Source of the DNA: Herbaspirillum rubrisubalbicans
GTDB taxonomy: Bacteria > Pseudomonadota > Gammaproteobacteria > Burkholderiales > Burkholderiaceae_D
Assembly (NCBI RefSeq): GCF_003719195.1
Contig: NZ_CP024996.1
Coordinates: 5,456,001 to 5,520,000, forward strand
DNA: 64,000 nt
Reading direction: 5' to 3'
Under the pieces are notes generated by a model. That model had not been told where the DNA came from and made no database searches. It was given only the letters and a program-made list of their open reading frames with translations. This document shows, in pieces, positions 13,287-28,567 of the stretch. Both the position numbers and the translations under genes were made by a program. Position 1 is the first letter of the stretch. Every line of letters starts with the position of its first letter.

Positions 13287-13337
13287 TATCATCGACGCAC
13301 CCTATTGCCCGCCATCACAGCCCACGGAGATCGCCAG

Positions 13338-14246
13338 ATGAGCCTGCCCAAGAAAGTGAAGATCGTCGAAGTCGGCCCCCGCGACGGTTTGCAGAACGAG
13401 AAGGAAACCATTTCCGCCGAGGTCAAGATCGAGCTGGTCAATCGCCTCTCGGCGGCGGGCTTCCCGAATGTGGAAGCGGCCTCCTTCGTCTCGCCCAAGT
13501 GGGTGCCACAGATGGCGACCTCCGCCGAAGTCATGCGCGGCATCACGCGCAAGCCTGGCGTGATCTACTCGGCGCTGGTACCCAACATGAAAGGCTTCGA
13601 CGCAGCGCTGGAAGCGGGCGTGGATGAGGTCGTGATTTTTGGTGCTGCCTCGGAGGCGTTCTCGCAGAAGAACATCAACTGTTCCATTGCCGAATCCATT
13701 GCCCGCTTCGCCGAAGTGGCCAAGGCAGCCAAGGACCATCGCAAGCGCTTGCGTGCCGCGGTCAGTTGCGCCTTCGGCTGCCCCTACCAGGGCGAGGTGC
13801 CGCTGGACGCCGTGGCCGACGTGGTGCGGCGCTTCCGTGAACTGGGCTGTGACGAAATCGACATTGCCGACACCATTGGCGTAGCCACTCCCGGCAAGGT
13901 CCGCCCGGTGATGGAAACGGCCATCCGCGAATTCCACATCGAAGGCTTGTCCGGCCACTTCCATGATACCTATGGCCAAGCCCTGGCCAACATCTATGCC
14001 AGCTTGCAGACGGGCATCAGCATCTATCACGCCTCAGTCGCGGGATTGGGAGGCTGTCCTTACGCCAAGGGCGCGACCGGGAATGTGGCTACCGAAGATG
14101 TGCTGTACATGATGCATGGCCTGGGCATCGAGACCGGGGTAGACCTGGATGCGGTGGTGGAGGCTGGGCAGTTCATCTCGCAGCAATTGGGGCGCAAGTC
14201 GGTGAGTAGGGCGGGGAATGCGATGGTGGCTAAGCGGGTGGGGTGA
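13338..14246 (+). CDS. liuE: Hydroxymethylglutaryl-CoA lyase
   Basis: Cleaves HMG-CoA to acetoacetate and acetyl-CoA, the last step of leucine breakdown; TIM-barrel DRE-family enzyme, 302 residues. Motifs: EVGPRDGLQNE at the N-terminus (Arg and Asp of the active site), GHFHDTYGQALAN, and the lyase signature GLGGCPYAKGATGN with the catalytic Cys at residue 240. The ATG at 13338 follows a GGAG; the open frame upstream adds 11 residues that do not resemble the family. Last gene of the liu cluster. Confidence 0.94.
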   Translation: MSLPKKVKIVEVGPRDGLQNEKETISAEVKIELVNRLSAAGFPNVEAASFVSPKWVPQMATSAEVMRGITRKPGVIYSALVPNMKGFDAALEAGVDEVVIFGAASEAFSQKNINCSIAESIARFAEVAKAAKDHRKRLRAAVSCAFGCPYQGEVPLDAVADVVRRFRELGCDEIDIADTIGVATPGKVRPVMETAIREFHIEGLSGHFHDTYGQALANIYASLQTGISIYHASVAGLGGCPYAKGATGNVATEDVLYMMHGLGIETGVDLDAVVEAGQFISQQLGRKSVSRAGNAMVAKRVG

Positions 14247-14313
14247 GGGCCAAAGAATAGCTAGAAGGGTCACAAAGACGGCAAGCCACTTTCTAACGAC
14301 CAAGGAGATAAAG

Positions 14314-14583
14314 ATGGGCAGACCTAAAGGATCGAAGAACAAACCAAAACCGCAGGCCGCTCCTCAACCTCCGAGCGAACCCAAACCTCCGGAGGAACTG
14401 AAGTCACCAATCATTCCTGGTTTCATTTCAGATCCAGCTGGCCGGATCAACGTTCGCGTCAGTACCACGACAAAGGATGGCCTCGCCCAACTGAAGGAAG
14501 ACTTTGGTCTGCATAGTCACGACGAGGTTCTAGAGAAAGCAATTGCCATTGTCATGGCCTTGCGAAAAGCTGTAGCAACATAA
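14314..14583 (+). CDS. Hypothetical protein with basic AT-hook-like N-terminus
   Basis: An 89-residue protein I cannot name. It starts MGRPKGSKNKPKP, which resembles the GRP-centred minor-groove-binding AT-hook, then a proline-rich linker (residues 14-35), then about 45 residues ending in a helix rich in Lys, Glu and Ala. The ATG at 14314 is preceded by AAGGAG at six bases, an excellent ribosome-binding site. It is the first gene of the lower-GC stretch after liuE and may have arrived with the CDI island. Confidence 0.65.
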   Translation: MGRPKGSKNKPKPQAAPQPPSEPKPPEELKSPIIPGFISDPAGRINVRVSTTTKDGLAQLKEDFGLHSHDEVLEKAIAIVMALRKAVAT

Positions 14584-14639
14584 TCTCAGCTCTGACAAGC
14601 TGAAGCCTTTTTACGCATTAATGCACCAGAGAAGTAAAA

Positions 14640-15044
14640 ATGTTTAATTTTTTCAAGAAGCGGCCTTCAGTTGTTGGAATAGCTGATACAGAACTCGTGA
14701 CAGCTCTACTTAACTACATTTTGCATGACTCGACTCTGTCGCGACCAGTTTATCTGCCAGGCGTTTTGACAGAAGAAGATGCGGAAAACATCGGCATCGC
14801 CCCTTTAGTCATAGTATGGAATGAAGATCAATTAAAGGGCTCATTTTCCGTCTCTATCAATAAGAGCGCGATTGAGCATTTACTTGAGGGGGCTCTTCCC
14901 GCAGAACATGAAAACTTCGTCCCGACAAGGAATGAAATTATCAAAGCTTTGAACGCCGCCGTGCCAGTTTCTATAGTCAAGACCTGCGAGAAATTAGGCG
15001 TACTTCCAAGTAAATTGTATGCATGGGATCCAACGCAGGATTGA
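14640..15044 (+). CDS. Hypothetical protein, 134 residues
   Basis: I do not recognise this protein. It begins MFNFFKKRPSVVGI, has no signal peptide or membrane segment, and contains alternating hydrophobic strands (APLVIVWNEDQLKGSFSVSI) and helices, consistent with a small globular cytoplasmic protein. GC content is clearly lower than in the liu operon upstream. The gene lies 56 bases after the AT-hook-like gene, on the same strand, and faces the minus-strand CDI remnants. An immunity or regulatory role is possible but unproven. Confidence 0.6.
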   Translation: MFNFFKKRPSVVGIADTELVTALLNYILHDSTLSRPVYLPGVLTEEDAENIGIAPLVIVWNEDQLKGSFSVSINKSAIEHLLEGALPAEHENFVPTRNEIIKALNAAVPVSIVKTCEKLGVLPSKLYAWDPTQD

Positions 15045-15177
15045 TTGCGTTAGAGCGTTCCTTTAGAAAAATTGACTGAAGCTAAACGTGATGCAGAGAA
15101 ATGACGACGTCGCCGAACTCCTAATTGATCTCCTCATTCCACATTAAGACAACGTTCGGAACTGGGTTTCTGTCTAT

Positions 15178-15396
15178 TCACGAATTATCAACATCCAACT
15201 CACTCCACAGGGGATCTAAACCGATGTCTTCCATATAGGTTCCAAAATCAACGAATCCTGATTTAATAATTTCAGTGCCAGACAACCAAGTTGCCTCACA
15301 CTCTTGGCAAACAAAAATTAGCCTTCCGGTCTTACGAATCATTGCTCTTACAACATCACCTTGTTCACATCTTGGACATAACATTTGAAGCTCCAT
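15178..15396 (-). CDS. Small zinc-ribbon protein, probable orphan immunity protein
   Basis: A 72-residue protein with two Cys pairs, CPRC (residues 7-10) and CQEC (30-33), spaced as a zinc ribbon, followed by an acidic C-terminus (DIGLDPLWSELDVDNS). Its ATG overlaps the stop codon of the toxin-like fragment upstream (TAATG), the usual arrangement of a CdiA C-terminus with its immunity gene. Acidic small partners are common among nuclease inhibitors. Function as an immunity protein is inference from this coupling; no named family is claimed. Confidence 0.6.
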   Translation of the reverse strand: MELQMLCPRCEQGDVVRAMIRKTGRLIFVCQECEATWLSGTEIIKSGFVDFGTYMEDIGLDPLWSELDVDNS

Positions 15397-15872
15397 TATT
15401 GAATGGGATAAGCAGTAATAATTTTTTTAGTACCTGGCCGAACAATAATTTTAATATTCATCTCACCGGCAGTTACTATAACTCTTCCCATAGCGACAGC
15501 GTATGCGCCAGAATCATTCGGCAATAGAGCCCCTCTAATTTTCCACGCTTCATCAACCAGCCCCAATATCTCATTCCTTTCCACACTAAAAACACCGTGC
15601 GTTGTTTTATATGGTTTTGGAGCTGCATGTTCAAGCTCTTCTCCAGGCAGACCTTTATCAATCTTGGTTTGTAGATATTGTGTTGCTCGGCCTTCTTGTC
15701 CAAAGTTAATTCAGACAACCTAGTCTTTATTCGGCACCAGCGATACCTCACCCACCTCGTTAATTGCTATGCGTTGATTCGGAACAGCAGTAAGCGCGGA
15801 CTACAAACTGCTCAGTTGCTCTTGAGAAGAAAGACGTACCGCTTCTGGAGCGAAATTAACGACCTTCATCTG
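15396..15872 (-). pseudogene. Degenerate CdiA/polymorphic toxin C-terminal module
   Basis: Read on the minus strand in one frame, this stretch encodes about 155 codons interrupted by four in-frame stops (one near 15800, then TAG at 15720-15722, TGA at 15711-15713 and a close neighbour upstream). The last uninterrupted part (15396-15710) gives about 100 residues ending GTKKIITAYPIQ, a C-terminal pattern typical of nuclease toxins at the ends of CdiA and Rhs proteins. No start codon with a ribosome-binding site is evident, and no secretion domain precedes it. It looks like a dead orphan toxin tip whose partner gene (15178-15396) remains open. Confidence 0.6.
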
Positions 15873-16160
15873 TTACATGAATTCGTATGTAAACTTATCT
15901 TCCCAACCATAATTTTCATCGTGCAACTTAACCGTCTCAAATATCTGCTTAATTATTTCAAAATCTGCGCCCAGCTTAATTTTTGATGCATCCGAATCGG
16001 TCCACTCCAAATGTAGCGGTCTCTCAATCCAAGAACTCAGCACATCGCGAAGGGCATGATAATTCTTTCCATAATACTGCTCGATACCCAGCAGTTTGGA
16101 AAAGACATTATGAAAATCATTCACATTGTTTATGTCGCTGCCGCTAATACGTAACTTCAT
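15873..16160 (-). CDS. Barstar-family ribonuclease inhibitor (orphan immunity protein)
   Basis: A 95-residue protein matching the barstar pattern along its length: an N-terminal strand (MKLRISGSDI), a helix leading to LLGIEQYYGKNYHALRDVLSSWIERPLHLEW, and a closing acidic helix. The YYGKNxxAL..DxL segment is the family hallmark and carries the residues that plug the active site of barnase-type RNases. The ATG at 16160 is preferred over 16178. No barnase-like toxin is found next to it: upstream lies a CdiA fragment and downstream an unrelated broken toxin. It may protect against neighbours carrying the matching toxin. Confidence 0.82.
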   Translation of the reverse strand: MKLRISGSDINNVNDFHNVFSKLLGIEQYYGKNYHALRDVLSSWIERPLHLEWTDSDASKIKLGADFEIIKQIFETVKLHDENYGWEDKFTYEFM

Positions 16161-16189
16161 TTTATTTCCACGTTCCAATAGAGGTTACC

Positions 16190-16620
16190 GAATTATAGTG
16201 ATCGCCCCCCCCAGGTTGCGAAGGTTGTCGGCGCGCAGCAATCGTGCCGCCACGGTTGAGGATGTCCTGCGCCGTCTGCAAGGCCAGATCGTTGCCGGCG
16301 ATCAGGGTCTGCTGGCCGCTGACCTGGATGTTGGAAGGGTGCAGGTACACCTGCGGCACCAGCACTTCCTGGGTGCGGCCATCGGCCAGCGTTACCGTCT
16401 GCTTGACCAGCCAGACGATGTCCGTCTTGATCTGGACAAGTTGTGCTTGGCTCAGCGCAACGCCCACTACGTAACGCTGGGCTTGCGCCTGTTGCAGGCC
16501 GGCTTGCATCAGCGCCAGGTATTACGCTTCGTTGCTGTTGACGCCTCTCAGGTAACGCTGGCCGGTGGCTTCCTGGATCGGGCGCTGGATCTGCGGGGCG
16601 GGGCCGAACTTCTGTTACCG
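16190..16620 (-). pseudogene. Fragment of a second CdiA-type gene (haemagglutinin-repeat region)
   Basis: The minus strand encodes a stretch closely matching CdiA residues about 1570-1710 of the intact gene (for example DIVWLVKQTVTLADGRTQEV). The central 190 bases (about 16250-16440) are almost identical to about 21040-21230. The flanks differ by scattered substitutions and by two deletions of about 20 and 40 bases. The pattern fits a remnant of another CdiA allele rather than a recent tandem copy. It has no start, no secretion signal and no toxin of its own. Confidence 0.8.
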
Positions 16621-16718
16621 TGAGCAGTACACCAGCGTGGCGTAAATCTTATAAACAAATTTAAGACGTGTCACACCTGTGAAGTGCAATAACAGCTTGG
16701 GTTTTCAGGGCTTTTTGC

Positions 16719-16973
16719 TTACCCAGAAACTCTCGGTTTATTTATCGCATCCAGCAACTCTTCTAACTCAATACCGTATTGATTTGGTTCAAAGTTCTCA
16801 TCAATACCTTCCATCATAAATTCTTGATTTATCAAATCGCAAAGCGTATCCACATGCAACATCTCTACATTTCCTTGCAATGCACATCTGAATGCTTCGG
16901 TTTTATCGTCATTCAATTTGCCTTGAAGGTATTTCAATAAATTCTTTTGCGACTCGGTCAAATTTACTATCAT
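16719..16973 (-). CDS. cdiI: Probable CdiI immunity protein
   Basis: An 84-residue acidic protein starting MIVNLTESQKNLLKYLQ, mainly helical by composition, with clusters of Asp and Glu (EGIDENFEPNQYGIELEELLDAI). Its ATG overlaps the cdiA stop codon (ATGA), so it is translationally coupled. By position it should neutralise the toxin at the CdiA C-terminus and bind it in the cytoplasm. I do not recognise a named immunity family. AT-rich relative to the rest of cdiA, as is normal for exchangeable toxin/immunity cassettes. Confidence 0.75.
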   Translation of the reverse strand: MIVNLTESQKNLLKYLQGKLNDDKTEAFRCALQGNVEMLHVDTLCDLINQEFMMEGIDENFEPNQYGIELEELLDAINKPRVSG

Positions 16974-19900
16974 TTTTCCACCCCCTTAGCACTAGTCCCC
17001 CAAGCGGTAACTACATTTCCTTGCGGGTTAACAACCACGGTTGCATTTTGCCCCACATATTTAAACGTAGGCCCATATTTGCTTGGAACGTATTGAATTG
17101 ATACTGGATATAAAAAAGCATCCGTAACTGCTACTTGATTAACTCCTATGCCTGAGTCTCTGCTGGCGATTTGAGATAACGCGTGATCAGAATAACTTAC
17201 GATTTTCGTTGGGGCAGATACCCCGGCCGCTTGTTCCGCTGATAGTTGCATTTTCAATCTAGCAGCTTGTGCGGAACTAACAGCAATCCCATTCGTAGCG
17301 TTCGCCGCAGGGTTTACAGAACTGGTCGTGCTGCCGCTTAGATTGTTACGTCCTGTCCCTGCTACAGCCTCGCCACCCGCATCCGCCGTTCCTACGCTTA
17401 CAGAAGCGACTTCGCTAGTTGCCCCACTCATCGATTTTTTTGAGTCTGAGGCTGGGCGTGCGCCGACCTTATAAGGCTGTGCCACTTCCGCACTTGATCC
17501 AGCAGAATTGCTACTTGCGCCAAATAACGAAGAAGCCCCCGCCCTTGGCAACATGAACGACGTCCCAATCTGCGCCAACTGCCCCATCGCAATCGCCAGC
17601 CCATCACGGGTATTCGCACTTGCACCTGCCACGGTAGCGCCAAGATAACTACCACTGGCTAAGGAGCTATTGGCGATCGAGTCAACAACCGAGAAGAAAC
17701 GCGACAACTGCATTCCCACAGGCGTCAGACTTTCATAAGGCGTCACGATCGGATATATCCCCGCCTTCGCTCTCGCTTCATTAAAGATAAGTTCGTTGGG
17801 GCTTTGAGTTCGGTTCCAGTAGTCCTGCCACTTGAAGTTCTTGCTCGTATAGTCACCACGATCAGAGCTAGATCCCGCGTAAGGGAAGCTATATGCCGGA
17901 TTGCTACCGTTCTGAACAAGCTGCCGTTTAGCCTCTTCGCCATTCTGTTTGGCATACCAAGTCAGATAGATATCCAGATTCTGCTGATCGTATTTGGTCA
18001 AGGGTTGCCCGGAACGGTACTTGTTGAGCAACCCATCACTGATCTGATCACTGATCTCTAATAAAGCGAGCTGTTGTGCCTCATCCTTCGTCAGCTTCAC
18101 CTTGCTCTGCGCCTTCTGACGCAGCTCATTCAATCTCGCTCTATCGACATGACCCAGGAAGTTATTGACGACCTCGTTATAAGCCGCCGCACCACCCGCA
18201 GTCCCACCAACAGCAGCCCCCACCAAGTTACTCGACAACCCCGTCAACGCCTTGGCCAGATCAGGATCAACACCAGCCTTATCCAAAGCAGAGGCCACAT
18301 TCGGCGCCGTCAAGGTTCCCGCAGCAGCGCCAGCCGCGCCCGCAAGTCCTCCCGTCAACCCACCAACAATGCTATGTGCCAGCACCCGCATCTTTCCATC
18401 CGGCCCCCACTTACTTTCAAGGGCGCTGGCCTGATCGTTAAGTTCCTTAGCCTGTTGCGGATCACTCGTATCCGCAGCCTGCTTGCGTAAATCAGCCGCC
18501 TTCTTCTGCTGTTCCTCGGCATAGTTACCAATCAGCGTGGAAGCCTGCTGCCCAAACGCCTGCGTAATCTTCGCCTGCGCCTCGACATCCTCACGCAGTT
18601 GATTGCCGTCCCAGCTCTTCGACAAACTATTGCTGCTGTCCTTACCCGTGCGTACCGATGCATCCAGCGACGCCACCGCCTGATCCGAACTTTGTCCCGT
18701 CCTGGCCTGTTGCGCCTGCGCATCCGTAATGGTCACTGCCGCACCCGATACACCACTACGCGTCACGCTGGTCTCGCTACCCGAGGCGTTTCCGATGCCA
18801 ATGCCTCCGCCTGGTTTGCCACCTGACGTACCGGCACTGGCACTCTGACTCTCTGCCGAGTATTGGCTCCGATTCTGGATATCACTGCTGGTAAGTGTTC
18901 CCGTGGTCAGGCTATTTCTTCCCTGCTCCACCGCCTGATCCGTGCTAGCAATCTGCGCCCCCTTCAGATCCGTATTGCCCTTCACGTTGATCTGGAAGCC
19001 ACCATTTCCCGCCATGATCCCGGCTTGCTGCCCCACGCTCGCATAGTCGGCATCGACACGGCTGCGGCTGGCGCTGATGCTGGCGCCCGATCCATACCCT
19101 ATCGTCGCACTGCCACCAATGCTCTGATCACGGCTCTTGAAGGTACTGGTGTCCTGCACGCTGGCGATGTTCAAGTCGCGCCCAACGTTGGCCAGCACCT
19201 GTTCCCCCGATACCGTGGCGCCAATCAGATTCGTATCACGACCCGAATTCATGTTGACCTGACCGCCCGCCCGCACCTGCGTCATCACATTGGAAACGTC
19301 CTTGCCATCGCTGTTGCCTCGGCTGCCCGCTGCATTGGCTGTGATGCCGAATCGGTTTTTTGCTCCGATCTGCGCCGTGATACCCACACCCCATGAAGAC
19401 GACGAGCGCGTGCTGCGTTGTTCGTCGCTGTTCTGTGCCGCGATGAGGTTGATGTCGTTGTCCGCCTTCAGCGCGAGATTGCCCTTGGCATTGATGTCGC
19501 TGCCGGCAATGGTGATGTTGCTGTTGGCGCCGTCACCGGTTGCACGGATGCTCATGTTGCCGCCAGAGGCCACCGTGGCGCCGCGTTGTGTCACCGTGTT
19601 CTGTTCGCTGCGGCTACCGTTCTGGCTGCTGCCTATCGTGGCGCTGATGCCGATGCTGGGGCTGCCTTCCGAGCCGGCTTTTTGCATCTCTCCGGCGGCG
19701 CTGTAGACCGACATGCCTGCTGTCGCAGCAGCCAGTGCCTGCGCGCGGCCGCTCTTGGTCTTGCTCGCGGCGTCGGCCATCTGCTCTACCGATTGCATCG
19801 CCGAGATCACCGGACTGGTGATGGCCAGCGTTACTCCGCTTTGTTTGAACTTGTCTTCGGTGGTGGTTTTACTGGCCTGCTCTGCCGCCCGAATCTCCAC

Positions 19901-22900
19901 CGACCTGGCCGCAATATCGATATCCCCCTTCGGCGCCAGCACATCACTCCCCACCTGCGTATATCGATTGCCCGCCACAATAGTGACGTTGCCTTCCACA
20001 CTGCCAATCGTGGAGGCAGCAGCGGTCTGCGCCCGTCCATCCACATCACGACTCTGAACGCGACTACCCACCGTCACCCCCAAGCCCGCCCCCATCACCC
20101 CACTGGTGCGCTCCTGCCGGAAGCTGCGTCGGGTACTGCTGTCGATCGCGGAAGCAATGTTCACATCCCGTCCCGCCACCACCGCTGTACCCTGCGTGGA
20201 GACGACATCGCTTCCCGTCACCTTCACATCCTGGCCCGCACGGACCAAGACGGCGTTGCCAGACAAGGTGCTGCCCAGTTGACGGCTGAAGCTGCTGGCG
20301 TCATCCGTGCGTACCGTCTTGGCACTGAGGATGCCGCTGCTGCTGCGCTGCACCTGGTCGCGCGCGCTGCCTGATGCGTTGGCGGCGCCGATCTGGATGT
20401 CGCGTCCGGCTTGCGCTTGCAGGGCGCCCTCGGCCACGATCTGCGTTCCCTTGGTGATGACATCCTGGCCCGCCTGGATGCGGATGTTGCTGCCGCTGAC
20501 CTGGGTCGCGACTTCCTGGCTGCCAGTGACCACGGCGCGGTTCACGCCCACCTCGGTGGTGCCATACGCACCATTGCCACGGTCCACCAGATTCGGGCCA
20601 GTCAATGTGCGAACCCAGTTGCTGCCGCCCCGGTCATTGGCCCAACGGATTTCCTGGCGGAAGTATTCCGTCACCGCCCCAAAGTTGACGTCGCGTGCCG
20701 CCAGAATGCTCACGTCTCCCCTGGCTGCGATCACGGCGGCATTGGCAGTGAAGTCGCGGCCTGCCGCTATCACTACGTCCTTGCCGCTGACCCTGGCAAG
20801 CTGATTGATGTTGCGCCCGACGGTGGTGGCGTTGGCCGTGTCCACGCTGGTGCTGGTGAGGGCGATGTCTCGCCCTGCGCGCAGGATGAGCTGCTGGTCG
20901 GCATCGATGCTGCCTCCGGCATTGTCGATATCGTGGGCGGCGGCGATATAGACATTGCCGCCCACGATGCGTCCACCCAGGTTGCGGAGGTTGTCGGCAC
21001 GCAGAGCGACGCCACTGCGCGCGGCAATCGTGCCGCCACGGTTGAGGATGTCCTGCGCGGTCTGCAAGGCCAGATCGTTGCCGGCGATCAGGGTCTGCTG
21101 GCCGCTGACCTGGATGTTGGAAGGGTGCAGATACACCTGCGGCACCAGCACTTCCTGGGTGCGGCCATCGGCCAGCGTTACCGTCTGCTTGACCAGCCAG
21201 ACGATGTCCGTCTTGAGCTGGGCGATCTGCGCCTCGGAGAGGGCAATGCCCAATGCATAGTGCTGGGCTTGCGCCTGTCGCAACGCGGCTTGCATCAGCG
21301 CCAGGTATTGCGCTTCGTTGCTGTTGAAGCCCTTCAGATAACGCTGGCCGGTGGCTTCCTGGATCTGGCGCTGGATCAGTTGCTGTTCATAGAAACCATC
21401 GGCGAAACGCTGGACCTGCGGGGCGGGGCCGGACTGTTCCCGGATGCGCTGGATCAGGAAGTCCGAGGACAGCCAGTTGCGGTTGCCGATGAAGCGCGCA
21501 TCGGTCTGTACCAGGGGCGCGGTCGGGCTACTGTTGTTGACCTGGTAGAGTGCATTGATCGGCAGGCTCACATCCACCGCAGGGGCGCGCAGATCGGTAG
21601 TTCTGCCGGTGGCCGGCAAGGGCTGCGTGGGGGCCGTGATGGCGGCCCGGGAAATGGCGTCCCGCGTGGAACCGGTGCCGTGCGTGGGGGTGACCTCCAG
21701 CTGGAACTGAGTTTCTATCGTTTGGGAAGCGTAGGGCGCGCTTTCATAACGGCGGTCGTCTGCCTTGAAGCTGTGGCTCTTGACGAAAGTGCGCTGGGCC
21801 GTTCCTGTCGAGGTGACGGTCTGTCGGCCCAGGGGACCGATGTTGTTGATGGTGGTGCCGTTAATACGGTCCGCGACCAGCGCGCCGCCTGCAATGAATT
21901 GGCTGGCATAGTTGTTGACCACGCCTGCCACCAGGTCCATGCCACCGCCCGAGGTGATCATGCCCGGTGCGCTGCGCGTGACGATGGTGCGACGGATCTG
22001 TTCGGTGCCATCGTGGATGATCCATTGATCGAACAGGCGCTCACGCAGACTGATGTTGAAATCCCTGATGGCCTCGTTGAGCTTTTCGTAGGCGGGAAGC
22101 TGGGCATCGCGCACTGCCTTCCAGGCGGCGCGTCGTTGCTGGTAGTCGCCACTGACACAGTTGTCAGCGTCGCTGCAGCCAGCCGGCTTTTCCGGCTCGC
22201 TCGGCACTTCAGCCGTGGGGCGCGCTATGCCGAAGACATCCCAGATCCGGTCGCTTGGCCGGTAGACAAACAGCTCAGGCAATGCCGGCAGGATCGCGGT
22301 TTCCGTACTGGACTCAGGAAGTGGCTTGAGATACGCAGGAACGACACCGATACCACCGGAGGAGTAATCTCGCCTGAGGACTTCCCGGTTGTAATCAACA
22401 GGCGGGCCATAACGGTCGAAAGGATATTCTGCCGAAGGAAGCAATAGGCGGAAGTTGTCCTCATCGCCCATCGCGCGCCAGTTCTCGGGCGCGATGATCT
22501 GGTTGTTACCTATACTGATGAGTCTTGCCTTGTCTGCCGAGATGAAGTCCGATGAACCGACCAGGCGGTAGTTGATGACCCTGCGCCCCGGCTTGTTCTC
22601 TTCGGATGTCTCGAAATGCGCATTATGGTTGTTGATCGTATCGGCAGCGATGCTCAGACGACCATCGGCATTGATGGTGGCGCTGGTGTTGTTGACGACG
22701 CGGGCGCGGCCCGCAGCACGGTAGTCCTGGCCCAGCGTGCCGCCGATGGCGATATCGCCCACCGAGTACAGCAGCGCCTGTTCGCTGTTGTGAATCTCGC
22801 CGGCGCCGATGTCCAGCCGTTCGCGTGCAGCGATGACGGGGGCGCGCAGGACGCCCTCGACGATTTCTGGGGCGTTATGCAGCACGTCGGCGCGGATGGC

Positions 22901-25900
22901 GAGGCGGTCGCCATAGAGGCGGCCGGGGCCGAGGTTGTCGAGCGTGCCGGCTTGCAGGCGCGTGGTGACGCCGTCGATCAAGCCACGGTTGAGCAAGGTG
23001 CTGGCTTCGGTTGCCGTGAGCAGTACCTCCTTGCCGAGCAGGGCGGCGCCGGCATGGTTCTCGATGCTCTTGGCGCTGATGCTCAGGGACGCACCGGCAG
23101 CGGTGGTGCCGTAGTGGCTGAATCTGCCGGCGGTGCGAATGTCGATGTTGGCGCTGGCGGCGGTCTGGCCGCGCTGCTCCAGATCGCGCACGACATCGAT
23201 GCGCAGATCCTGGTGGCTCAATAGCAGACCTTTTCCGATCAGGGCCGCGGCGCGCAGGTCGAGTTCTTCAGCGGCGACGATGCGGCCATCGTCGTTGTCG
23301 ATGATCAGGCTGCGATTGGGGGTGCTGTCGCTCACCCCTACCTTGCCCTTGGACGAGAGCAGGCCGCGACGGTTCTCTACGCTGCCCACGGAGTCGATCT
23401 TGAGCAAGCGGTCAGTGCGGATGGCGCCCTGGTTGTTGTTGACGTCAGTGGCGCGGATGGTGACATCGCGTCCTTCGATGCCTTGCTCCTTGTCCTGGGT
23501 GTCGTCGTTGCGCAGGGTGCGGGCCTGGAGGGCGAGGTCGCTGTCGGCGCGGATCAGGCCTTGGTGGTTGTCCAGCGTACCGCCGGCGATATCGATGCGC
23601 ATCGTACTCTGCGCTTGCAGTTTGCCTGTGCTGTTATCCAGGCTGTCGGCGTCGAGGTTGAGCGCACCTGCCGTGACCATATCACCACCCTGGTTGTCCA
23701 GGCGGCTGACCTTCAGGTTGGCGTCACCCACCACGACCACCACGCCGCTGCGATTGATGAACGGCCCACTCTCGATCCGCAAGCCGCCACCGGCGCGCAG
23801 GCCCTGGTCCTTGCTGGAATGGGTGTTGCGCAGCGCCTGGCCATGGGTATCGATCTCGACCGTCTTTCTGGCTTGCAGCAAGCCTTGGTCGTTGTCGATC
23901 TCGCCGCTGGAAATATTCAGCTTGCCCTTGGCGGCGATACGGCCCTCGGCATTAGTGAGTTCGCCGCTGGCAATGCGCAGATCCTGCTGCGCCACCACCA
24001 CGCCGCGCTGGTTGTTGAAGCGCTGCCCGCGCATCTCCAGCAGCACGTCTTGGCCAGCGATCGTGCCGGCGCTGTTGTCGATGCCGGCGGCGGTCCATGT
24101 GATGTTTTTTGCCGCCAAGATCTGGCCGTAGTTGGTGCTTTGGCCTTCGGTGGCAAGCGTGAGCGCGGCGTTTGCAGAGCGCAGCGTGCCGCGATTGTCC
24201 AGCGTGCTGGCGGTGAGGCCGAGGGCATCGTTGGCGCCTATTTCTCCGGTGTTATTGAGTTGCTGCTTGAGCGCCAGTGTCATGGCCGCAACAGCGGTCA
24301 GCTTGCCGCTGTTGTGCAATGCCGATGCGTTCAGGCGCAGCGCTTGCGCGGCTTCCATCGTGCCGCTGTTGAGGGTGCTGCCGCTGGTTTGCACATCGAT
24401 GGTGGAACGGATCGAATACAGCGCATTGCGGTTCTCCAGCGCAGCAGCGCGAAAGTCGATGGCGCCAGCCGCACCGATCTTGCCAGTGTTGAGCACATTG
24501 CCCTGGATTTGCATCGCCAAGCTGCCGGGTGTGACGACGCTGCCCTTGTTGTCGACCGCCGCCGCATCGATAGTGATGTCGCCGCTTGCCTGGAGTGTCT
24601 TGTCGTTATTGATTTGCCCGGACAGACTGATCGTCATGGCCTTGCCGGCACTGATCAGGCCCTGGTTGTCCACGCTGGCAGCACGCAGGTCGACTGCGCC
24701 TTGGCTACCCAGGGTGCCGGCATTTCGGATGTGGGTGCGGGTGATGACGGCGAGCGCATCCTCGCTGATGAATCGGCCCTGGTTATCCAGTGCAGTCGCA
24801 TTGGCCGTCACGGTCTGCCGGGCTTCGATGTTGCCGCGATTGACGAGCCGCTCACCGATCTTCAATTGCACGCTGGAGCGGCTTGAATAGAGATCCTGAC
24901 GATTCTCCAGCGTGGCGGCCTGCACCGTGAGCGATGCATTGCTGCCGATTCTTCCGCCATTGATGAGCCCCTGCTTGAGCCCAATCTCAAGGGCAGCGGG
25001 GGTGAGCAAATCGCCGCTATTGTCCAGCGCGGCGGCGTTCACGGTAAGGCCGGTGGTGCCACCGATGCTGCCACTGTTGCCGAGCGCGCCGGCGACCTCC
25101 AGACGGGTGTGGCCGCGTGCAGCCAGGGTGCCGGTGTTCTCCAGGCGACCGGCAGCCGTGACGATCAATTCGGTGTCAGCGACCAGCTTGCCGCCGTTGT
25201 GCGCCCCCACTCCCTGTTCGGTAGCCATCAGGTAGATGTGGCCGGCATACATGCCGCCCAGATGCGCGACGTCGATGGCGCGTAACGGTGTGGCATCCAG
25301 CGGCGCTATGCCAGGTACCACCTGTTCATGATCGGCACTGACCGCATTCAAACCGGTGCTGACCTTGACTCGGTTGGCCCACAGACCGGCATTGATGCGC
25401 ACCGCACGCGCAATCAGGTCGGCGTAGTCGGCGCTGCCGGCCTGCATCCCGTCACCTTCGATGGAGAGCACGCCGCCGCCGACGCGATAACTCTCCAGGC
25501 TGCCCTGGTGGATGATGGGTGTACCGGTCGTCAAGGTCACGCGCGGTGCATTGATGAAGCCGCAGCCGGCACAGGTGATGCCGGCCGGATTGGCGATGAT
25601 GACCTGGGCCTGATGGCCCGCCACTTCGATGAAGCCGCGCAGATAGCTGGGATCGGTTGCGTTGATCTGGTTGACGATGACCCGGGCGCCACCGCCGGCC
25701 AGGCGCGGATTGCCGGCGACATATCCGGCCAGTCCGGTCTTGCTGGCACTGCCGGCATTGTTAAGGATCACGCCCCGCGCATCGACGTCGAAGCGGCGAT
25801 AGCGGTTCACCGACAGACCGCGGGCATTGGGTTGCTGGATGTTGACCACCGGCACGCCATTGCCACTGCTGAGGACGCTAGCCTGTTGCGTCGGCGGGGC

Positions 25901-26125
25901 GTTGCGGTCGATCAGGATCTGCGCATGGACCACGCTGTGCCAGGCCAGTGCGAGGGCAATACTCAACCTCAATGCCGAACATCGCCCCGCACCTGACACC
26001 ATCATCCGAGCGGCACTGCGCGTGCCGCTCACTGCCTTGCCACTGATGACGGACGCCCTTTCTGCCACGGCCACCAGCATTGACCTATGACGATTGAAGA
26101 CCAAGCGATAGCACTGCCGATTCAT
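16970..26125 (-). CDS. cdiA: CdiA-type contact-dependent inhibition toxin / filamentous haemagglutinin (TpsA), 3051 residues
   Basis: A giant exoprotein of two-partner secretion. Order: extended signal peptide region (MNRQCYRLVFNRHRSMLVAV) and hydrophobic core with likely cleavage VVHA/QILIDR after residue 68; TPS secretion domain about 69-330 with the NPAGI motif at 179-183 and a Cys pair CAGC at 185-188; haemagglutinin repeats to about residue 1150; a spacer with few repeats to about 1560; a second repeat block to about 2450; an Ala/Gly-rich pre-toxin region ending near YNEVVNNFL (about 2650). The last 400 residues are variable. The final 78 (2974-3051) resemble the DUF4258 fold (SDHALSQIASRDSGIG... 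and VVVNPQGNVVTAW), a nuclease-like family. CdiB is divergent, the immunity gene overlaps the stop. Confidence 0.9.
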   Translation of the reverse strand: MNRQCYRLVFNRHRSMLVAVAERASVISGKAVSGTRSAARMMVSGAGRCSALRLSIALALAWHSVVHAQILIDRNAPPTQQASVLSSGNGVPVVNIQQPNARGLSVNRYRRFDVDARGVILNNAGSASKTGLAGYVAGNPRLAGGGARVIVNQINATDPSYLRGFIEVAGHQAQVIIANPAGITCAGCGFINAPRVTLTTGTPIIHQGSLESYRVGGGVLSIEGDGMQAGSADYADLIARAVRINAGLWANRVKVSTGLNAVSADHEQVVPGIAPLDATPLRAIDVAHLGGMYAGHIYLMATEQGVGAHNGGKLVADTELIVTAAGRLENTGTLAARGHTRLEVAGALGNSGSIGGTTGLTVNAAALDNSGDLLTPAALEIGLKQGLINGGRIGSNASLTVQAATLENRQDLYSSRSSVQLKIGERLVNRGNIEARQTVTANATALDNQGRFISEDALAVITRTHIRNAGTLGSQGAVDLRAASVDNQGLISAGKAMTISLSGQINNDKTLQASGDITIDAAAVDNKGSVVTPGSLAMQIQGNVLNTGKIGAAGAIDFRAAALENRNALYSIRSTIDVQTSGSTLNSGTMEAAQALRLNASALHNSGKLTAVAAMTLALKQQLNNTGEIGANDALGLTASTLDNRGTLRSANAALTLATEGQSTNYGQILAAKNITWTAAGIDNSAGTIAGQDVLLEMRGQRFNNQRGVVVAQQDLRIASGELTNAEGRIAAKGKLNISSGEIDNDQGLLQARKTVEIDTHGQALRNTHSSKDQGLRAGGGLRIESGPFINRSGVVVVVGDANLKVSRLDNQGGDMVTAGALNLDADSLDNSTGKLQAQSTMRIDIAGGTLDNHQGLIRADSDLALQARTLRNDDTQDKEQGIEGRDVTIRATDVNNNQGAIRTDRLLKIDSVGSVENRRGLLSSKGKVGVSDSTPNRSLIIDNDDGRIVAAEELDLRAAALIGKGLLLSHQDLRIDVVRDLEQRGQTAASANIDIRTAGRFSHYGTTAAGASLSISAKSIENHAGAALLGKEVLLTATEASTLLNRGLIDGVTTRLQAGTLDNLGPGRLYGDRLAIRADVLHNAPEIVEGVLRAPVIAARERLDIGAGEIHNSEQALLYSVGDIAIGGTLGQDYRAAGRARVVNNTSATINADGRLSIAADTINNHNAHFETSEENKPGRRVINYRLVGSSDFISADKARLISIGNNQIIAPENWRAMGDEDNFRLLLPSAEYPFDRYGPPVDYNREVLRRDYSSGGIGVVPAYLKPLPESSTETAILPALPELFVYRPSDRIWDVFGIARPTAEVPSEPEKPAGCSDADNCVSGDYQQRRAAWKAVRDAQLPAYEKLNEAIRDFNISLRERLFDQWIIHDGTEQIRRTIVTRSAPGMITSGGGMDLVAGVVNNYASQFIAGGALVADRINGTTINNIGPLGRQTVTSTGTAQRTFVKSHSFKADDRRYESAPYASQTIETQFQLEVTPTHGTGSTRDAISRAAITAPTQPLPATGRTTDLRAPAVDVSLPINALYQVNNSSPTAPLVQTDARFIGNRNWLSSDFLIQRIREQSGPAPQVQRFADGFYEQQLIQRQIQEATGQRYLKGFNSNEAQYLALMQAALRQAQAQHYALGIALSEAQIAQLKTDIVWLVKQTVTLADGRTQEVLVPQVYLHPSNIQVSGQQTLIAGNDLALQTAQDILNRGGTIAARSGVALRADNLRNLGGRIVGGNVYIAAAHDIDNAGGSIDADQQLILRAGRDIALTSTSVDTANATTVGRNINQLARVSGKDVVIAAGRDFTANAAVIAARGDVSILAARDVNFGAVTEYFRQEIRWANDRGGSNWVRTLTGPNLVDRGNGAYGTTEVGVNRAVVTGSQEVATQVSGSNIRIQAGQDVITKGTQIVAEGALQAQAGRDIQIGAANASGSARDQVQRSSSGILSAKTVRTDDASSFSRQLGSTLSGNAVLVRAGQDVKVTGSDVVSTQGTAVVAGRDVNIASAIDSSTRRSFRQERTSGVMGAGLGVTVGSRVQSRDVDGRAQTAAASTIGSVEGNVTIVAGNRYTQVGSDVLAPKGDIDIAARSVEIRAAEQASKTTTEDKFKQSGVTLAITSPVISAMQSVEQMADAASKTKSGRAQALAAATAGMSVYSAAGEMQKAGSEGSPSIGISATIGSSQNGSRSEQNTVTQRGATVASGGNMSIRATGDGANSNITIAGSDINAKGNLALKADNDINLIAAQNSDEQRSTRSSSSWGVGITAQIGAKNRFGITANAAGSRGNSDGKDVSNVMTQVRAGGQVNMNSGRDTNLIGATVSGEQVLANVGRDLNIASVQDTSTFKSRDQSIGGSATIGYGSGASISASRSRVDADYASVGQQAGIMAGNGGFQINVKGNTDLKGAQIASTDQAVEQGRNSLTTGTLTSSDIQNRSQYSAESQSASAGTSGGKPGGGIGIGNASGSETSVTRSGVSGAAVTITDAQAQQARTGQSSDQAVASLDASVRTGKDSSNSLSKSWDGNQLREDVEAQAKITQAFGQQASTLIGNYAEEQQKKAADLRKQAADTSDPQQAKELNDQASALESKWGPDGKMRVLAHSIVGGLTGGLAGAAGAAAGTLTAPNVASALDKAGVDPDLAKALTGLSSNLVGAAVGGTAGGAAAYNEVVNNFLGHVDRARLNELRQKAQSKVKLTKDEAQQLALLEISDQISDGLLNKYRSGQPLTKYDQQNLDIYLTWYAKQNGEEAKRQLVQNGSNPAYSFPYAGSSSDRGDYTSKNFKWQDYWNRTQSPNELIFNEARAKAGIYPIVTPYESLTPVGMQLSRFFSVVDSIANSSLASGSYLGATVAGASANTRDGLAIAMGQLAQIGTSFMLPRAGASSLFGASSNSAGSSAEVAQPYKVGARPASDSKKSMSGATSEVASVSVGTADAGGEAVAGTGRNNLSGSTTSSVNPAANATNGIAVSSAQAARLKMQLSAEQAAGVSAPTKIVSYSDHALSQIASRDSGIGVNQVAVTDAFLYPVSIQYVPSKYGPTFKYVGQNATVVVNPQGNVVTAWGTSAKGVEK

Positions 26126-26324
26126 AGGACGCCCCCGTCGATGATGTCGAAGCGGGCGGATGCCGATTCGATTCGAGGGGCAGTCTATTTTTTGGAGGGA
26201 AATTTAAAAATCAGAATTCTCTGATTTTCAGGGAAGAGATAAAACGAGACATTGCGATGGCCTCATTTTTCTAACTATTTCATCGCCCACGGCACAGCTA
26301 CTTTTGCCGGATGACATAAAACTT
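26126..26324. promoter_or_regulatory. Divergent cdiA/cdiB promoter region
   Basis: 199 AT-rich bases between the two divergent genes; the CDI promoters must be here. It includes a long inverted repeat (26207-26228). T- and A-rich tracts flank it. No clear sigma-70 hexamer pair is assigned. Confidence 0.55.
26207..26228. promoter_or_regulatory. 22-bp inverted repeat, candidate operator of the CDI genes
   Basis: Arms AAAATCAGA and TCTGATTTT are perfectly complementary around a 4-base centre, about 80 bases from the cdiA start and 97 from the cdiB start. As RNA it would form a weak AT-rich hairpin, so a DNA-binding site for a dimeric regulator is more likely. Confidence 0.5.
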
Positions 26325-28037
26325 ATGAAACCACGACATTGGCTCTCTCCCCTCTTGCTTGGCCTGGCAAGCTGCTTGCCTTATGCGGCGACCTCGGCGC
26401 AATCCATCGGCATCCATCAGGAACAATTACAGCGTGAACGGGAACGTATCTTGCGCCAGCAATTGGAACTGACACCCTATGTGGTGAATCCGGTTTTTCC
26501 ATCGACGCAGGCAACGCCGCTTTCCTTCCCTGAAGAGGAGCAGCCTTGCAGTCGGATCGATGCGCTCGTCCTGCAAGGCAAAGCTGCGCAAGACTTTCAG
26601 TTTGCTCTCAGCGAAGTCCGGCAGCCGGCCAACGAAGGTGGCGCACTGGGCCGTTGCCTGGGTGGCCGTGGCATACAGATGGTGATCGCTCGCGTACAGA
26701 GCGCCATCATCGAACGTGGCTTCACGACCACCCGGGTGCTGGTGCAACCGCAGGACCTCTCCAGCGGCACGCTGGTGCTCACGCTGGCGCCGGGTCGGGT
26801 GCGCAAGCTGCGCATGGCCGAGGATGCCGATCCGCGGGGCACGCTCTTGAATGCCCTGCCGCTGTCGGAGGGCGACATCCTCAACTTGCGCGCCATCGAG
26901 CAAGGTCTGGAAAACCTCAAGCGCCTGCCCACGGTCCAGGCCGATATCCAGATCACCCCTTCGCAAGAAGCTGATGCGCAAGATGGCGATAGCGATCTGG
27001 TGGTGCAGTATCAGCAGGCATTGCCGTTTCGGTTCTCGAGTTCGCTCGATGATGGTGGGACACGTGCGAGCGGTCGTTACCAGGCGGGCGTGACATTGAC
27101 CTATGACAATTGGTGGACGCTCAACGATCTCTTCTACGTCAGCCTCAACCGCAGTCTTGGTCGCTATGGTGATCGTGGCAACCGCAGCCATACCGTGCAT
27201 TACTCGCTGCCCTTCGGTGACTGGCTGCTGTCGGCCACCAGTTCGGCCAGCCGGTATCACCAAACCGTGGCCGGCGCCTTTGAGCCGGTGCGCTACAGCG
27301 GAGAGAGCGAGAGCGGCGAACTGAAATTGTCGCGGCTGGTGCAGCGCGGTGGCAGCAGCAAGACCAGCCTGGCGGGCAAGCTCTTGCTGCGCCGCTCCTT
27401 GAACTTCATCGATGGGATTGTTCTGGGACCACAACAACGGCGCATGTCGGCCTGGGAGTTGAGTGTGCATCACCGGCATTTCATCGGATCGGCGGTGCTG
27501 GAAGGGAACCTGGGCTATCGGCGCGCCCTGGATCGTCAGGGCCAGGAGGCCCAGGATGAACTGGACCTGCCGCAGATCGTCAGCCGTTACGCTCTGTGGC
27601 TGGCCGATGCCGCATGGAATGTGCCCTGGCAATGGGGCAGCGCCAGGCTGCGTTACAGCGGGACGGCACGCGCCCAATGGAACCGGGGGGCTCTGCCAAC
27701 CCAGGACCAGTTCGCCATTGGCGGACGCTATACGGTGCGCGGTTTCGATGGCGAGCTGACGCTACAGGCCGAACGGGGCTGGCTCCTGCGCAATGAAGTG
27801 GCACTGGCCTTGGGCGCGAGCGGACAGGAAATCTATGCCGGTTTCGATACCGGGGCGGTAGCAGGTGCGCTGACGCAGAACCTGACTGGCCGCCGCTTGA
27901 GCGGTGCGGTGCTGGGGTGGCGCGGCAGCCTGGACAAGCTCGGCTACGAGCTCTTCGTGGCCACGCCATTGGCCCGTCCGGCAGGATGGGCGAGCGCCTC
28001 GGTGACGGGGGGCTTCAACCTGCAATGGACGTATTGA
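26325..28037 (+). CDS. cdiB: CdiB/FhaC-type outer-membrane transporter (TpsB)
   Basis: Omp85-superfamily barrel that exports CdiA; 570 residues. A Sec signal peptide (MKPRHWLSPLLLGLASCLPYAATSAQS) is followed by the plug helix (HQEQLQRERERILRQQ), two POTRA domains (about residues 80-160 and 160-230), and a 16-strand barrel to the end (SVTGGFNLQWTY). The VRGFDGE motif (residues about 470-476) is the conserved tip of the L6 loop. The ATG at 26325 is chosen because it opens the signal peptide; a TTG seven codons upstream is possible. It is transcribed away from cdiA, unlike the cdiBAI order of enterobacteria. Confidence 0.9.
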   Translation: MKPRHWLSPLLLGLASCLPYAATSAQSIGIHQEQLQRERERILRQQLELTPYVVNPVFPSTQATPLSFPEEEQPCSRIDALVLQGKAAQDFQFALSEVRQPANEGGALGRCLGGRGIQMVIARVQSAIIERGFTTTRVLVQPQDLSSGTLVLTLAPGRVRKLRMAEDADPRGTLLNALPLSEGDILNLRAIEQGLENLKRLPTVQADIQITPSQEADAQDGDSDLVVQYQQALPFRFSSSLDDGGTRASGRYQAGVTLTYDNWWTLNDLFYVSLNRSLGRYGDRGNRSHTVHYSLPFGDWLLSATSSASRYHQTVAGAFEPVRYSGESESGELKLSRLVQRGGSSKTSLAGKLLLRRSLNFIDGIVLGPQQRRMSAWELSVHHRHFIGSAVLEGNLGYRRALDRQGQEAQDELDLPQIVSRYALWLADAAWNVPWQWGSARLRYSGTARAQWNRGALPTQDQFAIGGRYTVRGFDGELTLQAERGWLLRNEVALALGASGQEIYAGFDTGAVAGALTQNLTGRRLSGAVLGWRGSLDKLGYELFVATPLARPAGWASASVTGGFNLQWTY

Positions 28038-28266: not shown

Positions 28267-28567
28267 GATTCCCCCCTATGACAAAAAACGACAATGAGGA
28301 CGACAACGAAAGCCGGGCTGGCCCGTGCCGACTGAGCCGGTCCGCAAAGCGCCCCCGATAGCGCTTGCGTGGCCTGTGGTTGCGCCCGGCCGGTGAAAAC
28401 CAGGCGCCTGTCCAGGCTAGACAGTAAATCATATAAATAATTTCCTGAATATTTCCTGTTCGCGCAACAAAAAGCACGACCGTTATATTTTTGCCGCCTT
28501 TTACCCTATAATCGTCCGACAAAAGCGGCCCTGCGCCTTGATAGAACGACAACCACGAGAGACGACC
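28267..28567. other. Intergenic region before the nitronate monooxygenase gene
   Basis: 301 bases without a supported gene. An AT-rich part (28425-28515) contains a perfect TATAAT (28507-28512) that could be the -10 box for the gene starting at 28568, with only a poor -35 match at the usual distance. Divergent transcription of the small membrane protein also starts here. Confidence 0.45.

Follow-up and report, generated by a model that had tools for sequence, protein, structure and literature searches.

Orphan modules located behind cdiBAI genes, together with their mobility and function, were described by Poole et al. 2011 (PMC3150448), who reported that orphans usually, but not always, encode a VENN-type motif. 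In Acinetobacter, step-wise displacement and a predominance of cdiI were described for the orphan regions of type-II cdi loci (2019; PMC6336857). For the tpsC cassettes of Neisseria meningitidis, recombination was shown and a collection of immunity genes was proposed (PMC3848433), and in the T6SS orphan immunity arrays of Vibrio cholerae the immunity gene is retained and the effector lost (PMC5361080). Orphan immunity proteins probably protect against other CDI systems according to a review (PMC9086364). Barnase and barstar are known as a polymorphic toxin pair (PMC3482391), and a barstar-type CdiI was reported in P. brassicacearum (PMC4725963). A limited literature search, which is no proof of absence, returned no paper on barstar as an orphan immunity protein or in association with zinc-ribbon immunity proteins.

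The window analyzed here, a DNA stretch of 64,000 nucleotides, contains an intact cdiA gene on its minus strand (16970-26125) that encodes 3051 aa with the Pfam domains TPS (E=2.5e-48), Fil_haemagg_2 (E=2.5e-47) and ESPR (E=1.6e-6). The current immunity gene cdiI (16719-16973, minus strand; 84 aa) is connected to it by an ATGA overlap. No Pfam or NCBIfam family was detected for the current toxin tip (16973-17263, minus strand; 97 aa searched), cdiI yielded no Pfam family above the cut-off and no NCBIfam family, and a structure prediction of the tip with a mean pLDDT of 47 was set aside. A 64% relative of the tip is found in genome G311, within an open frame of 3322 aa and directly followed by a 37% relative of cdiI; given both relatives, the assignment as an active cdiA/cdiI pair appears credible. 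A 577-aa frame (26304-28037, plus strand), read as cdiB from sequence alone, is divergent from cdiA and shares no operon with it. Blast matches suggest the same divergent cdiB-like arrangement in other loci of the genus (e.g. L021 and L023), and in L036 and L037 the cdiB-like match is positioned downstream of cdiA. The own genome contains two further cdiA-like loci, near 1854499 (L024) and 469396 (L025), which are 79% identical to the cdiA-derived FHA piece described below; the long frame of L024 has only 1966 codons.

A strip of orphan sequence follows directly downstream of the intact cdiA/cdiI pair and on the same strand. The sequence-only reading had listed a cdiA fragment, a barstar-type immunity gene, a broken toxin tip and a zinc-ribbon gene, and all of these were located on the minus strand behind cdiA/cdiI; a barnase toxin end directly before the barstar gene was absent from its list. 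Besides its position, the strip shares with orphan CDI modules that it holds cdiA-derived sequence and that toxin fragments are followed by their own immunity genes (the zinc-ribbon pair, and the barnase tail with barstar). Behind the active pair, at least three other toxin modules have left remains in the strip, which puts the specificities at this site at a minimum of four: the current one, barnase, an interrupted remnant and a toxin coupled to the zinc-ribbon gene. This is one more than the at least three proposed earlier because the interrupted remnant is counted; without it, the number is three, as before. It is very probable that the strip represents the orphan zone on the downstream side of a CDI island and arose by successive displacement of modules. 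A DNA search of 60 relatives besides the own genome found no match to the strip as a whole. Nearly all matches fell on the FHA piece, mostly within other cdiA genes, and two on small genes left of the strip. The motifs VENN, VDNN and (E/Q)LYN were found neither in the six frames of 14247-16972 nor in the intact cdiA, and since the latter also has no VENN-type motif, this motif is not applicable to this cdiA.

The first remnant (16207-16620, minus strand) stems from a second cdiA; in a gapped alignment, two deletions (39 and 20 bp) and a stop are apparent. BLAST of the strip against the window aligned 361 bp (16231-16591) to positions 21017-21377 of the own cdiA with 91.4% identity. The piece of about 400 bp corresponds to residues about 1562-1718 of 3051 in CdiA, which places it in the middle of the gene and not at the toxin tip. 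It had been attributed to a different CdiA allele, and this description fits one side of a mosaic break near 16430, where 23 of 154 positions differ from the own cdiA, but not the other side, where only 2 of 192 differ (7 bp between the two blocks were left out); 2 of 5000 permutations were as extreme. Other cdiA copies compared are at most 85% identical in the near-identical 192-bp tract. This mosaic identity suggests that the remnant and cdiA recently exchanged sequence, or that a recombination ended near 16430. Beside the more divergent 154 bp, such a tract would also suit a strip that serves as a recombination reservoir, with the FHA piece allowing exchange with cdiA and re-arming the cell with stored toxin ends, and there are precedents in an orphan-to-cdiA fusion in Yersinia (PMC3150448) and in cassette exchange in Neisseria (PMC3848433). 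This function is nevertheless improbable, as no usable toxin end is left in the strip beyond 13 codons of one toxin and the fused, interrupted rest of two others. Cases of further cdiA pieces were surveyed in 20 stretches from the own genome and relatives, which provided 16 other cdiA loci with a long frame matched by cdiA, two of them in the own genome. At a threshold of E<=1e-8, seven of the 16 contain an additional cdiA piece on their downstream side; nine have none, one of which (L023) shows a weaker one.

The cdiA piece is followed by the last 13 codons and the stop of a barnase-type toxin (16162-16203, minus strand), recognized by profile score and by position before the barstar gene. 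The sequence DHYNSVTSIGTWK is encoded at 16203-16162, and a single base separates its stop from the barstar ATG at 16160. With a profile built from nine barnase tails from elsewhere, it obtained a score of 47, the best of all 1729 stop-preceding 13-mers in the window, while the runner-up reached 10.9. In view of this score, a deletion appears to have joined mid-cdiA sequence to the last 13 codons of barnase. A possible ribosome-binding site for barstar, GGAAA, was noticed by eye within the tail region.

The barstar-type immunity gene itself (15873-16160, minus strand; 95 aa) is open, and its assignment was borne out by Pfam PF01337 (E=6.7e-17) and by barstar in the PDB (E=6.6e-13). The alignment with PDB 1x1x is ungapped and the residue numbers coincide. 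For the comparison with relatives, 92 loci were entered, 86 matched and one duplicate contig was dropped, resulting in 85 sequences. Position 35 is an Asp in all 85 relatives and a His in the window. Asp39 is present in the window and in all 85, and position 34 is a Tyr in the window and a Leu in 82 of the 85. We take D35 and D39 to be the main contacts with barnase, and the loss of D35 thus weakens the idea of a barstar that still protects. By sequence, the protein belongs to the Imm-Barstar family and is best described as a descendant of a barstar, while the DxxxD motif of this family (Zhang et al. 2012, PMC3482391) is broken and reads HxxxD. The gene, changed at a shared residue, may no longer provide protection and may be decaying rather than kept; its lost cognate toxin may have differed too. 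A search of 5.8 billion proteins by a method that requires shared short words recovered only the window's own cluster (4 candidates).

Relatives of barstar were kept for 80 named loci, and the upstream side was inspected in 22 of these (the 20 best together with L177 and L179). An uninterrupted barnase-type domain directly precedes barstar in nine of the 22, with Pfam Ribonuclease confirmed in both loci that were scanned, and no barnase was recognized before barstar in nine others. The remaining four loci, three of them in CDI-like arrays, carry a broken barnase beside a whole barstar: a 52-codon barnase frame adjoining a frame with PT-VENN in Serratia oryzae, a 48-codon barnase frame adjoining a frame with DUF637 in Photorhabdus heterorhabditis (L167), a piece of barnase before barstar in Massilia kyonggiensis and, in Neisseria elongata (L156, 5850-6276), a frameshifted remnant directly before an open barstar that by eye belongs to a series of small frames following a cdiA-end-like frame. 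The combination of broken barnase and whole barstar is therefore not unique to the window. The Photorhabdus array (L167, 3-5326) extends over about 5 kb and comprises a C39-peptidase-type toxin end, small genes, the truncated barnase with its barstar and a further long frame.

Behind the barstar gene, the sequence-only reading had placed a broken toxin tip with in-frame stops. Three such stops are indeed present, but the tip turned out to be a fusion of two different toxin-like stretches: an open piece of 104 codons (15399-15710) matches other genomes only from residue 26 onward, and the stops lie upstream of it. The second remnant (15630-15872, minus strand), which contains the three in-frame stops, was used, with each stop replaced by X, to search 294 genomes of the family; besides itself, it matched only G080 and G085. 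The G080 match (56%, 55 residues) follows a cdiA-end-like frame and a small gene, and the G085 match (69%, 39 residues) falls within a frame of 65 codons. No Pfam family was detected for these two fragments, and from the setting of the matches we infer that the second remnant was a toxin. The third remnant (15396-15635, minus strand) comprises about 79 codons of the C-terminal part of a toxin whose N-terminal part is missing. Toxin ends in G080 and G159 share 73% and 68% identity with it, respectively; each is followed by a zinc-ribbon gene, and in both relatives the aligned domain begins some 30 residues earlier, in a stretch that is absent here. The G159 relative has a weak similarity to the EndoU profile (E=0.093; 13.5 bits, cut-off 25.3); the G080 relative does not match this profile, and a PDB profile search gave nothing relevant. 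A protein search with the remnant tip listed one relative.

The zinc-ribbon gene (15178-15384, minus strand) had been described as coupled to this tip, and the TAA of the tip does overlap an ATG (TAATG, 15398-15394). The zinc-ribbon frame opens at 15396; the next ATG at 15384, six bases after a GGAG, is the likelier start, which is indicated by 21 of 23 aligned relatives that begin at MLCPRC, the position of this ATG. The toxin represented by the third remnant was found in eight of the 294 family genomes and the zinc-ribbon gene in 30, the own genome being included in both counts. Seven other genomes have the toxin, and in five of them (G080, G159, G277, G248 and G221) the zinc-ribbon gene lies next to it; no adjacent pair is present in G136 and G111, where the toxin relatives are distant. 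The contexts of three of these five pairs were inspected. By eye, the toxin forms the end of a 1402-aa frame read as Rhs in G159, follows another CdiA-like frame and a small gene as an orphan in G080, and is found among Rhs-like remnants in G248, and hence the pieces of the strip need not all have come through cdiA. Its pairing with the toxin identifies the zinc-ribbon gene as a putative immunity gene. In an alignment of the window's protein with 23 of 39 listed relatives, it agrees with the family at 18 invariant columns, which include the window by definition, and at seven nearly invariant ones; the two CxxC pairs (C7, C10, C30, C33) are invariant in all 24 sequences. Pfam zinc-ribbon models gave weak matches below the cut-off (best 0.009), and the AlphaFold model of the protein is confident (89.1) and has no PDB fold match at E<=0.001.

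Five empty sites served to place the edges of the cdi island at about 14249 and 28112, between a gene at 13305-14246, which we take to be lyase-like, and a gene at 28538. The lyase-like gene is present in 33 of 34 genus genomes, own included, and the one miss is a 63% complete genome. Among the 33, the site flanks of 22 were inspected, namely those of the window, of L023 and of 20 further loci. Twelve genomes have no insert, with the two flanking genes within about 0.7 kb, and five have a gap of about 2.4-2.5 kb without any cdi match; in G024, the gene at 28538 was not seen within 19.9 kb. A cdi locus occupies the site in four genomes, namely the own genome, G028, G025 and G008, with a shortened cdiA in the last two. 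Small immunity-like genes, some of them alike by eye, accompany cdiA in G028, G025 and G008, and none of these three loci gave a tblastn match to the barstar, the zinc-ribbon gene, the tip or the cdiI of the window. In G008 (L141), cdiA and a cdiB-like gene both have no start and meet at a deletion point, and the cdiA end and small immunity-like genes are still open. In G028 (L023, 3344-5236, minus strand), two adjoining immunity-like genes behind cdiA each appear by eye to contain an internal domain repeat. Two small island genes of the window (14314-14583 and 14640-15044, both plus strand) lie between the lyase-like gene and the strip, and each has a relative in one genus genome (G018 and G017). 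The frame 14640-15044 was considered as a further immunity gene and rejected, as it is on the opposite strand and 60 other genomes yielded a single relative (40%).

The absence of the island from the site in 12 of 22 genomes could also mean that another strain supplied the strip in finished form together with the whole cdi island and that no replacement took place here. Modules imported together with extra immunity genes have been described (Kirchberger 2017, PMC5361080), and the chance of such an import is considered to be not far below even. It would shift the history to another host, however, and the mosaic FHA tract indicates exchange with this very cdiA. That the strip is a product of assembly error is very unlikely. 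No point was found in favor of it, and the genome is a single contig of 5,617,593 bases. Furthermore, a contig of 369,924 bp encodes a protein of 54 residues that exactly matches part of the zinc-ribbon protein, and the barstar cluster spans two contigs, although both records could be from the same strain.

Successive displacement within the island is the preferred explanation. Repeated toxin/immunity replacement had already been proposed for this locus, and it gains support from three sides: in other genomes, relatives of barstar and of the zinc-ribbon gene immediately follow toxin ends, the interrupted stretch has fragment relatives in two other genomes, and the genus comparison revealed the same site to be empty or to carry other orphans. 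A new cdiA-CT/cdiI would enter by recombination within cdiA, and the old 3' end of cdiA would be pushed downstream, lose its start and then decay. Deletions would remove most of each displaced toxin, one of them joining mid-cdiA to the barnase tail and another joining two unrelated toxin stretches. Barstar and the zinc-ribbon gene each have an apparent ribosome-binding site in or just after the last codons of the toxin, and both would have remained open because the deletions stopped short of them. As no strain with intermediate steps was found, the order of these events is one that we infer. A more specific and rather speculative version is that displaced toxins are trimmed down to the few codons in which the immunity gene has its ribosome-binding site, with the antidote repeatably outliving its toxin as a result, and that a freed antidote then drifts or is retuned, as barstar might have been.

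The present role of the strip is likely that of leftover immunity against neighbors that still deliver the old toxins. The earlier suggestion that immunity genes were kept as a defense finds support in the two open immunity frames next to broken toxins and in the fit of the zinc-ribbon protein to the conserved positions of its family, but not in the barstar. Of the two genes, the zinc-ribbon gene is the more credible carrier of leftover immunity; the barstar lacks a residue that is otherwise invariant among its relatives. The lost D35 would also be compatible with neutral junk, in which the open immunity frames represent no more than the shortest and most recent portions of decaying DNA, without any selection for immunity. 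A short frame is more likely than a long one to stay intact by chance, and neither promoter-like sites (four found, 4.2 in shuffles) nor terminator-like sites (three against 2.6) exceed chance, the former adding to the case for neutrality. We hold neutral decay to be a serious, if minority, possibility, given that the zinc-ribbon protein conforms to its family and has an SD-like GGAG before its start, and that broken barnase beside whole barstar recurs in four of 22 other loci, mostly within CDI-like arrays.

The strip combines successive toxin swaps at one chromosomal site, of which empty and differently filled versions exist in relatives, with two orphan antidotes that are apparently in different states of repair. 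Together, these features make it possible to ask directly for orphan immunity whether selection or a decay slower than that of the toxin is at work. The pattern of a toxin cut back to its tail ahead of a complete immunity gene merits a survey. Compared with the orphan modules described by Poole et al. (PMC3150448), the strip likewise consists of startless cdiA fragments and small immunity genes directly behind cdi genes, the length of the upstream cdiA varies, and the modules are related to those of other species, whereas the toxin parts are far more reduced, the cdiA piece is mid-gene and no VENN is present. The Acinetobacter type-II regions (PMC6336857) share step-wise displacement and a predominance of cdiI remnants with the window but belong to another genus and another cdiA class. 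As in the tpsC cassettes (PMC3848433), 3' ends and immunity frames are stored behind a two-partner toxin; the cassettes are N-terminally truncated homologues with different C-terminal domains, while the toxin ends of the window are broken. The V. cholerae arrays (PMC5361080) resemble it in that the effector is lost or cut back, the immunity gene is kept and the 3' end of the effector is shifted back, with T6SS effectors there and CdiA here. The barnase-type tail directly before the barstar gene corresponds to known barnase/barstar pairs (PMC3482391, PMC4725963), from which the window deviates by the nearly complete deletion of the toxin and by HxxxD in place of DxxxD (PMC3482391). The strip is a clear example of a known phenomenon, orphan CDI modules, and its surprise is the changed barstar residue.
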